A program made the translations under genes and the position numbers. From NCBI RefSeq assembly GCF_014205165.1, contig NZ_JACHMZ010000001.1, positions 1,648,001-1,712,000 on the forward strand: DNA of 64,000 nucleotides, written 5' to 3'. Positions 42,604 to 44,178 of this stretch are shown here, piece after piece (position 1 is the first letter of the stretch; each line of letters opens with the position of its first letter). The DNA is from Micromonospora carbonacea (lineage in GTDB: Bacteria; Actinomycetota; Actinomycetes; Mycobacteriales; Micromonosporaceae). The notes under the pieces were generated by a model that was not told the origin of the DNA, made no database searches, and saw nothing but the letters and a program-made list of their open reading frames with translations.

Positions 42604-43353
42604 TCAGGACTTCGGGCCGACGTGCCGGTCCAGCACCGCGACCGCCTCGCGCCGGGCCACTGACAGCGAGTTGGGGCGGTTCATCCGCCAGGCGACGCCG
42701 AGCAGGCCCAGCGTCCACTGGCAGAGCCCCATGATGTCGGCGGACTCGTTGCTGAACAGGTAGCGCGGGTAGACGTAGCCCCTGCAGCGCACGGTCACCC
42801 GGTTGGTCACCCGGCAGCCGTCGGAGTGGAACAGGCCGCGCGCGAAGTCCCCGGGGCGGGCGGCGACCAGCGCGCGCTGCCAGTCGGCGAGGACGATCGG
42901 CCGCTCGTGCTTCTTGCCCGGCCCGTGCTGCGGCAACAGGCACGGCCAGTGCAGGCCGTAGCTCTGGACCGCCACGCAGCCCTGCTTCCGGACCCGCTGC
43001 ACGCTGTTGGCCAGGACCGCCCTCATGGCGGTCTCGCAGGCGTCGATCAGCCCCGGCCAGGACGTCGTGCAGTAGACGCGCAGCACCGGGATCCGCGCAG
43101 TGGTGACGAGGTGGCCGTCGCCGAGATAGAGGCCGAGGAGGTAGGCGTAGGCACCCGGATCTGTCGGATTGTCGACGCCCGGGCGGCAGCGGAAACACCG
43201 CAGGGCGCTGGCCTGCTGCCTGCTCTCGGGCCGGTCCCTGCACCAGTGGCGGACCGTCGTGTAAGGCAACCCGACGCTGCGGGCGGCCTCGGCGATGCTC
43301 CAGCCGGACAGGTGGAGCGCGCGGACGCGGGCGCGGATCTCAGGCGGGTGCAC
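42604..43353 (-). CDS. HTH plus LAGLIDADG-like protein beside a tRNA gene
   Basis: 249 residues from GTG 43353; longer forms would run back through the tRNA. Residues 2-40 (PPEIRARVRALHLSGWSIAE, then TTVRHW) form an HTH of the Hin/resolvase-tail kind. A CFRC pair (53-56) follows. Two LAGLIDADG-like motifs are visible, YAYLLGLYLGDGHL (72-80 core, acidic D79) and FARGLFHSDGC (170-179, D178), spaced as in single-chain homing endonucleases. It lies 35 bases downstream of the tRNA in the same direction. It could be a domesticated regulator rather than an active nuclease. No intron or intein host gene is visible. Confidence 0.75.
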   Translation of the reverse strand: MHPPEIRARVRALHLSGWSIAEAARSVGLPYTTVRHWCRDRPESRQQASALRCFRCRPGVDNPTDPGAYAYLLGLYLGDGHLVTTARIPVLRVYCTTSWPGLIDACETAMRAVLANSVQRVRKQGCVAVQSYGLHWPCLLPQHGPGKKHERPIVLADWQRALVAARPGDFARGLFHSDGCRVTNRVTVRCRGYVYPRYLFSNESADIMGLCQWTLGLLGVAWRMNRPNSLSVARREAVAVLDRHVGPKS

Positions 43354-43388
43354 CCGCTTATCTTCGAACGCCTGTATGACAGTTTTTG

Positions 43389-43463
43389 TGCCCTCGGTGG
43401 GATTCGAACCCACACTGTATGCAGTTTGAGTGCATTGCCTACTGCCGGTTGGGCTACGAGGGC
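43389..43463 (-). tRNA. tRNA with CAA anticodon (Leu by anticodon), short variable loop
   Basis: 75 nt reading from 43463 to 43389. Acceptor GCCCTCG/CGAGGGC (7 bp), D arm with a 3-bp stem GCC/GGC and a 12-nt loop containing GG, anticodon stem ATGCA/TGCAT with loop CTCAAAC (anticodon CAA), variable loop ACAGT of only 5 nt, T arm GTGGG-TTCGAAT-CCCAC, discriminator A. CCA is not encoded. The 3-bp D stem with extra loop bases and A73 are leucine-like, yet the long variable arm expected of tRNA-Leu is absent. What it is charged with is therefore open. Confidence 0.9.
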
Positions 43464-43557
43464 CTTCCATGATTCGGCCCTGACAGACTACCCACTACGC
43501 TAGGGACGGCGACACCCGGCACGGCGGGTGTCGGGCGCAGACTGGTGGGAGTGGCTC

Positions 43558-44178
43558 GTGGCCGAGACGCAGACGGATGCCGAGCGCAGGCGGGTGTTGA
43601 TCGCCGAGGACGAGGCGCTCATCCGGCTCGACCTGGCCGAGATGCTCGTCGAGGAGGGCTACGAGGTCGTCGGGGAGGCCGGCGACGGCGAGACCGCCGT
43701 CCGGCTCGCCGAGGAGCTGAAGCCCGATCTGGTCATCCTCGACATCAAGATGCCGATCATGGACGGGCTGGCCGCCGCCGAGCGGATCGCCGGCGCCCGG
43801 ATCGCCCCGGTGATCATCCTGACCGCCTTCAGCCAGCGGGACCTGGTGGAGCGGGCCCGGGCGGCCGGCGCGATGGCGTACCTCGTGAAGCCCTTCCAGA
43901 AGAGCGACCTGGTGCCGGCCGTGGAGATCGCCCTGTCGCGCTACTCGGAGATCGCCGCGTTGGAGGCCGAGGTCGCGGGCCTGACCGACCGGCTGGAGAT
44001 CCGCAAGACGGTGGAGCGCGCCAAGGGCGCGCTGATGACGACGTACGGCATGACCGAGCCGCAGGCGTTCAAGTGGATCCAGCGCACGGCGATGGACCAC
44101 CGGATGACCATGAAGGAGGTCGCCGAGCGGATCCTCGCCGAGACGGCCGGCGGCGAGGTCACCCAGCCGGCGTCCTGA
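43558..44178 (+). CDS. pdtaR: ANTAR-domain response regulator
   Basis: 206 residues from GTG 43558 with GGGAG 7 bases upstream. The receiver domain (about 12-125) has VLIAEDEALIRLDLAEML, the phospho-acceptor Asp62 in VILDIKMPIMDG, TAF, and the YLVKPF lysine. The ANTAR RNA-binding domain (about 140-195: LTDRLEIRKTVERAKGALMT, then AFKWIQRTAMDHRMTM) acts by antitermination on two-hexaloop RNA. It matches PdtaR of mycobacteria, whose kinase partner PdtaS is encoded elsewhere. No partner kinase is in this window. Confidence 0.93.
   Translation: MAETQTDAERRRVLIAEDEALIRLDLAEMLVEEGYEVVGEAGDGETAVRLAEELKPDLVILDIKMPIMDGLAAAERIAGARIAPVIILTAFSQRDLVERARAAGAMAYLVKPFQKSDLVPAVEIALSRYSEIAALEAEVAGLTDRLEIRKTVERAKGALMTTYGMTEPQAFKWIQRTAMDHRMTMKEVAERILAETAGGEVTQPAS

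Follow-up and report, generated by a model that had tools for sequence, protein, structure and literature searches.

A class I tRNA-Leu(CAA) without the long variable arm, and its apparent exchange with class II forms at one Micromonospora locus

Results

The window, by which we mean the whole 64-kb stretch of DNA analyzed, contains a single tRNA gene, a class I tRNA-Leu(CAA), which is flanked downstream by a gene for a LAGLIDADG protein and upstream by a divergently oriented response regulator gene that we take to be pdtaR-like (Table 1). The LAGLIDADG open reading frame starts 35 nt downstream of the tRNA in the same orientation and comprises 249 codons from a GTG start, the start being our choice. 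Membership of a phage-like tRNA array was considered and rejected, since the tRNA stands alone in the window.

Table 1. Features of the tRNA-Leu(CAA) locus (positions in the window)
Feature	Position	Strand	Basis and remarks
HTH plus double LAGLIDADG protein, putative free-standing homing endonuclease	42607..43353	-	Motifs, fold model, annotation of relatives
Class I tRNA-Leu(CAA)	43389..43463	-	5-nt variable loop, A73, CCA not encoded
5' flank of the tRNA, matching the 50-100 nt exchanged in sister genomes	43464..43563	-	Inferred extent here; overlaps the start of the listed regulator ORF
Response regulator with ANTAR domain, divergent neighbor marking the locus	43528..44178	+	Domain search; neighbor in relatives

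ARAGORN called tRNA-Leu(CAA) at 43388-43463 on the minus strand, and the Rfam model RF00005 matched 43389-43463 on that strand with 58.5 bits, against a gathering score of 29. With position numbers that we assigned onto the sequence, the gene reads as a 7-bp acceptor stem (GCCCTCG/CGAGGGC) followed by U8 and A9, a D stem of 3 bp with C13 and A22 unpaired, a D loop carrying A14, A15, G18, G19, and A20a, the anticodon arm ATGCA-CTCAAAC-TGCAT, the variable loop ACAGT, a U at position 48, a 5-bp T arm (GTGGG/CCCAC), and A73. These stem lengths set it apart from the allo-tRNAs of the 8/4 or 9/3 type, a candidate that we rejected, in which an acceptor stem of 8 or 9 bp is combined with a T stem of 4 or 3 bp. 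The tRNA has a leucine anticodon and the complete leucine core (A73, A14, A15-U48, G18G19, and A20a) listed for E. coli in PMC9976931, and it has a loop of 5 nt where class II tRNA-Leu has its long variable arm. The minimum-free-energy fold of the bare strand contains the acceptor, D, and T arms and lacks the anticodon arm. In an alignment with 20 relatives (n = 21), the stems are paired in 98.6% of 419 cells, and changes on both sides are seen at 14 of the 20 stem pairs, compared with a mean of 7.7 after shuffling and with none of 500 shuffles as high. Based on this pairing and covariation across the 21 sequences, the tRNA is not a chance fold, and the covariation shows functional constraint. 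The class I fold with CAA, an ACAGT loop, A73, and a 3-bp D stem, which the first-pass annotation had read from the letters, is therefore confirmed by ARAGORN, RF00005, our parse, and covariation.

The genome (7.53 Mb, one contig) yielded 50 matches to RF00005, all of which were submitted to ARAGORN. The tRNA at 43389-43463 is the sole CAA gene among them, and the other four tRNA-Leu of the genome (CAG, GAG, UAA, and UAG) are all class II. It had been proposed that a second, class II tRNA-Leu(CAA) would make this one redundant; since no other CAA tRNA was found among the 50 matches, the gene does not seem to be an extra copy. A class II CAA gene hidden by an intron was likewise rejected, given that no group I intron match occurs anywhere in the genome and that relatives have their CAA gene at this very locus. 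The codon UUG, claimed earlier to be rare, turned out to be uncommon but used, with 11 of the 261 Leu codons in seven window ORFs chosen by eye, which contain no UUA. One weak RF00005 match of 30 bits at genome positions 6833818-6833889, with no ARAGORN call, may be a tRNA relic.

In other families and in Micromonospora, class II tRNA-Leu(CAA) genes are found near the same ANTAR regulator gene, the distance between tRNA and regulator reaching 1.6 kb in a few loci, such as L184. Across 37 genomes, 36 from the genus and one (G385) from a sister genus, this locus carries a class I tRNA in 24 cases and a class II tRNA in 13; four further genus genomes with a blastn match (G001, G011, G013, and G036) stood outside this survey of 37. 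Since the tRNA occupies the site of the class II CAA gene of relatives, the short form replaces the long form rather than accompanying it. In another family of the order (L170 and L175 versus L040), the two classes agree in the letters of the acceptor, anticodon arm, and T arm and differ in the D arm and variable region, which has the appearance of an in-place conversion. The Micromonospora tRNAs of the two classes, by contrast, differ over the whole molecule. Compared with the canonical bacterial class II tRNA-Leu(CAA), the tRNA shares the anticodon, A73, A14, A15-U48, G18G19, the 3-bp D stem, and the locus in relatives, but it lacks the long variable arm and has C12-G23 for G12-C23 and C13/A22 for G13/A22 in the sequences compared.

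Work on E. coli LeuRS weakens the first-pass annotation's premise that the long arm is necessary in bacterial tRNA-Leu. According to PMC9976931, A73, the A15-U48 pair, G18G19, and A20a are essential for this enzyme, leucylation is uncorrelated with the sequence or folding of the long arm, and variants devoid of both the anticodon arm and the long arm are still active. Among 46 class I sequences that we chose and parsed, A14, A15, G18G19, U48, and A73 are present in all and A20a in 44, with the proviso that U48 was partly preselected by the patterns of the phylum CAA, order UUR, named-genome, and viral class I scans described below. Furthermore, A73 is found in 61 of the 62 distinct class I CAA/UAA sequences of loci L001-L261, the exception being an array copy with U73 (L049), and a bacterial LeuRS scored above cut-off in 21 of 21 genomes searched. 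An ordinary LeuRS would then charge the short form by recognizing A73 and the tRNA core (A14, A15-U48, G18G19, and A20a), as reported for the E. coli enzyme, for which the long arm is dispensable.

The first-pass annotation had also considered that the tRNA is charged with something else and could recode UUG. The class I shape is indeed unusual for leucine, and the class II UAA tRNA of the genome could read UUG by wobble, which would free the CAA tRNA for wholly or partly recoding this codon. However, in five flanking genes of Micromonospora, Leu makes up 90.4% of the residues that other genomes align to UUG of class I genomes (236 codons) and 92.1% of those aligned to UUG of class II genomes (178 codons), compared with 94-95% for CUG and CUC, and it is the commonest residue at the UUG columns for 197 of the 236 and 154 of the 178 codons, respectively. 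Since UUG aligns with Leu about equally in the short-form and long-form genomes, recoding is unlikely; together with the leucine identity elements retained in class I tRNAs and the class II tRNA-Leu(CAA) that relatives carry at this locus, this makes charging with another amino acid extremely improbable in our view. At the level of aligned sequences, these data show that UUG stands for leucine in class I genomes. Thus, the half of the earlier interpretation that saw a leucine tRNA without its arm gains support from the identity elements, the class II CAA gene at the relatives' locus, and the leucine columns, whereas the half that proposed other charging is not supported, and the role outside translation that it also raised is unnecessary as an explanation. 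We consider it highly probable that tRNA-Leu(CAA) works as a leucine tRNA, decoding UUG and being charged by LeuRS despite the missing arm, the charging being what we infer from identity rules that are those of E. coli and not of an actinobacterium.

The protein encoded downstream of the tRNA has helix-turn-helix matches below the Pfam cut-off and two copies of the LAGLIDADG motif, whose acidic residues are both invariant in 18 of 18 sequences. Among the 120 listed of 7955 matches, the nearest named relatives are from Micromonospora, and PF14528 or the name "DOD-type homing endonuclease" is attached to some of the relatives. The structure model has a mean pLDDT of 84.7, and its best fold match is the LAGLIDADG endonuclease I-Tsp061I (E value, 1.1e-7), so that the two motifs and the predicted fold together are those of a homing endonuclease. 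WhiA, a transcription factor with the same fold, is also among the fold matches, and a non-nuclease role is therefore possible. Matches to the gene occur in 32 of the 37 genus genomes, seven of these being split or partial, and the loci of G012, G014, and G428 gave none; the gene is thus polymorphic for presence at one site, as homing endonuclease genes are expected to be. In the 30 loci examined, it always lies downstream of tRNA-Leu(CAA), 19 of class I and 11 of class II. Since the class I tRNA is retained in some genomes in which the LAGLIDADG gene is broken or was not found, the tRNA does not depend on this gene. Outside the genus, the LAGLIDADG gene gave a match in 10 genomes, and in 9 of these the match lies close to a tRNA-Leu gene (with anticodon UAG in four cases and CAA in five), in a search that scored at most 18 candidates per genome among those listed and in which some matches are weak fragments. 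Homologs adjoin class II tRNA-Leu(UAG) in another family (L514, L515, L516, and L517), and the LAGLIDADG family may for this reason be tied to tRNA-Leu genes generally.

The distribution of the two tRNA classes was compared with gene trees. By itself, the regulator gene gives a tree of low resolution (15 of 34 inner branches open), which requires 9 class changes for the 37 genomes (mean with shuffled labels, 11.0; fraction as low, 0.12) and likewise 9 for the 29 genomes with one full-length endonuclease match (mean, 9.0; fraction, 0.62). A tree of five flanking genes, four of them new beyond the regulator and including those that we labeled "luc" and "g35," was built for 35 genomes, G014 and G015 of the 37 being set aside for low coverage. 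It requires 11 changes, against a shuffled mean of 10.7 (fraction as low, 0.71), in a tree with 8 of 32 inner branches open and with label shuffles that ignore branch support. Endonuclease trees could include the 29 of 37 genomes with a single unbroken match, eight being excluded, and 28 of these have the flanking genes. For these 28, the flanking-gene tree requires 10 changes (mean, 8.9; fraction, 0.93), whereas the endonuclease-gene tree requires 5 (mean, 8.9; fraction, 0.006). Removal of a distant outgroup gave 9 changes (0.84) and 4 changes (0.001), respectively. When the endonuclease gene of 27 genomes was divided into thirds leading away from the tRNA, cut from an aligned stretch that starts a few codons before the chosen start, the numbers of changes were 4, 5, and 7, with fractions of 0.0005, 0.0125, and 0.21. 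As judged from these trees, the results show that the class I and class II forms have been swapped repeatedly within Micromonospora, and that tRNA class carries no signal on the flanking-gene tree and follows the LAGLIDADG gene, most strongly its tRNA-proximal third.

Identity along the locus was compared for 14 genome pairs, six of which unite a class I and a class II genome. All six are 95-99% identical on the regulator side and 38-50% identical in the 50 nt before the tRNA. The sister genomes G028 (class I) and G033 (class II) are 98% identical until about 100 nt before the tRNA and 38-48% identical from there to the tRNA; the tRNAs are 42% identical. With the endonuclease gene divided into sixths, identity is 52-72% in the first four and 91-97% in the last two, and it is 90-97% in the DNA beyond. 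In another of these pairs, G448 and G019, the DNA directly downstream of the endonuclease gene could not be aligned, and G027 also shows a divergent stretch there. By these profiles, a tract that begins up to about 100 nt upstream of the tRNA and extends into the endonuclease gene has been replaced in sister genomes. The tRNA and the endonuclease gene were not always moved as one block, since the same-class pair G028 and G002 has near-identical class I tRNAs and clearly different endonuclease genes.

We propose that a short tract, made up of the 5' flank, the tRNA, and the start of the downstream gene, would be exchanged among Micromonospora species by recombination, and that double-strand breaks introduced by the adjacent LAGLIDADG protein would probably help this exchange. 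The chances that the endonuclease drives the exchange of tRNA forms are, in our estimation, about even. Homologous recombination of the ordinary kind, or selection acting on the tRNA, with the LAGLIDADG gene a mere neighbor, is a serious contender at somewhat under an even chance: an identity of 95-99% on the regulator side is sufficient for recombination in the six pairs, and the linkage to the endonuclease gene decays with distance, as it would for any tract centered on the tRNA. On the other hand, the association of the LAGLIDADG family with tRNA-Leu genes in 9 of 10 further genomes (weak fragments included) and the invariance of both acidic residues speak against a mere neighbor, as do the free-standing endonucleases of phage T4, which cause local co-conversion according to PMC2988022. 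T4 SegB resembles the present protein in being encoded by a free-standing gene beside tRNA genes, but SegB is a GIY-YIG enzyme of a phage, whereas ours is a putative endonuclease of the LAGLIDADG type in a bacterial chromosome. Going one step beyond endonuclease-driven exchange, the tRNA-Leu and the LAGLIDADG gene might constitute a free-standing homing unit, in which the endonuclease recognizes tRNA-Leu alleles and the replacement of a class II by a class I tRNA, or the opposite replacement, both spreads the unit and confers resistance to cutting on the new allele. We regard this extension as doubtful; if true, it would explain the frequent class change of tRNA-Leu(CAA).

Searches beyond the genus indicated a wide distribution of the short form. 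The tRNA gave blastn matches in 40 of 61 genomes, its own included, and ARAGORN called a short tRNA-Leu (CAA or UAA) at the match in the loci of 29 relatives. In a sample of 150 genomes of the order, a class I UUR pattern was found in 111 (98 with CAA and 13 with UAA only, from a list read by eye), a class II CAA pattern in 15, and a class II UAA pattern in 25; class I and class II CAA occurred together in 3 of the 98, the class I copies of which lie in tRNA arrays. In a sample of 296 genomes of the phylum, 16 matched the class I CAA pattern and 160 the class II CAA pattern, some of the latter looking like chance by their letters, and none of the 16 had both. This apparent exclusivity is supporting evidence only, because the class II patterns miss some genes: the first required GGYAGACNC, while the class II CAA genes of the genus read GGCATAC or GGCAGACATG, and a later one required GTG, while many of these genes read CTTG. 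Indeed, an initial finding that the genus has no class II CAA gene (37 genomes, in which the pattern detected UAA only) was a false negative, and the genus does carry such genes.

Named genomes gave at least 119 loci in the class I pattern scan, and a class I tRNA-Leu was called at 113 of the 119 listed (79 CAA and 34 UAA). Of these 113, 108 belong to Actinomycetota, with Streptomyces, Mycobacterium, Corynebacterium, Bifidobacterium, Rhodococcus, and Nocardioides represented among the loci listed. The first-pass annotation had suggested a search for the same tRNA in other actinobacteria, and class I CAA/UAA tRNA-Leu indeed proved to be present in many Actinomycetota. Within the flanking DNA examined for the loci listed, a pdtaR-like gene lies within 500 nt of 55 of the 79 CAA genes versus none of the 34 UAA genes. 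Viral contigs gave at least 120 pattern-selected loci, and 118 of the 120 listed hold a class I tRNA-Leu; neither these nor the named-genome counts are rates, because both patterns select class I. The tRNA also has matches in 21 records of a phage collection, the hosts being Corynebacterium, Streptomyces, Pseudomonas, Rhodococcus, and Prochlorococcus, and the three records that were opened are annotated as tRNA-Leu of 74-77 nt.

Chromosomal tRNA arrays with 8-22 tRNAs per few kilobases were observed in actinobacteria (L172, L180, L054, L049, and L148), where they contain class I tRNA-Leu(CAA) and in some cases also GAG or CAG. The presence of class I tRNA-Leu in these arrays of relatives and in the many viral contigs would suit a phage-derived or decaying passenger with little decoding role. 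We nevertheless judge a passenger to be very improbable, as the gene is the sole CAA tRNA found, the sole tRNA of the window, and part of a conserved locus, its stems covary, and one viral scan with the exact pattern of its own sub-type returned no match. A recent gift from a phage was rejected on account of that empty scan and of the nearest viral tRNA compared, which shares 66 of 75 positions with it. The class I lineage as a whole may still derive from phages in the distant past.

Discussion

A 2023 review limits short-arm tRNA-Leu to animal mitochondria, and the occurrence of class I CAA/UAA tRNA-Leu in many Actinomycetota and viral contigs runs against this limit. Animal mitochondrial tRNA-Leu is similar in its class I variable loop and in a leucine identity that depends mainly on A73 and A14 (PMC9976931), but the tRNAs described here have regular stems and belong to bacterial chromosomes and phages. 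A closer likeness is the short-loop tRNALeu(TAG) of an actinobacterium, which belongs to a cluster of tRNA genes in Mycobacterium mucogenicum and M. phocaicum and is thought to be horizontally acquired; according to PMC6582537, it has a normal chromosomal counterpart elsewhere, whereas the present tRNA is the sole CAA tRNA found and sits at a conserved locus. Another described CAA tRNA without a long arm is close in sequence to tRNA-Met and possibly a silenced pseudogene, unlike the present one with its leucine core features.

In M. tuberculosis, tRNALeu-2, 3, and 5 are said to have long loops in PMC11541572, and the naming of only these three suggests that the other tRNALeu of this species lack them. 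A Streptomyces tRNA table lists a CAA gene in PMC4932002, the main text of which does not contain the word "variable." The open-licence PMC literature yielded neither a chromosomal class I tRNA-Leu that is the sole tRNA of its anticodon in bacteria nor tRNA-Leu class switching at one locus; either may be described elsewhere, as in subscription papers.

Many actinobacterial lineages and viral contigs thus carry class I tRNA-Leu for UUA/UUG, and one genus is polymorphic at a single locus. This provides natural matched pairs for testing the purpose of the class II arm, the way in which LeuRS and SerRS discriminate between their respective tRNAs, and the ability of homing endonucleases to reshape the tRNA set of an organism.

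Class I tRNA-Leu(UAA), which reads the bldA codon, was observed in several families of the order (L041, L048, L051, L052, L055, L139, L140, L153, and L154) and, among the loci listed, in records titled Corynebacterium, Nocardia, Microbacterium, and others. It also occurs in records titled Synechococcus, Neomegalonema, alphaproteobacterium, deltaproteobacterium, and an unnamed bacterium (L297, L331, L333, L369, and L378). Finally, a 472-kb plasmid of Mycobacterium riyadhense (L191), the gene table of which has no RNA genes, contains a match 79% identical to the tRNA at positions 2501-2575.
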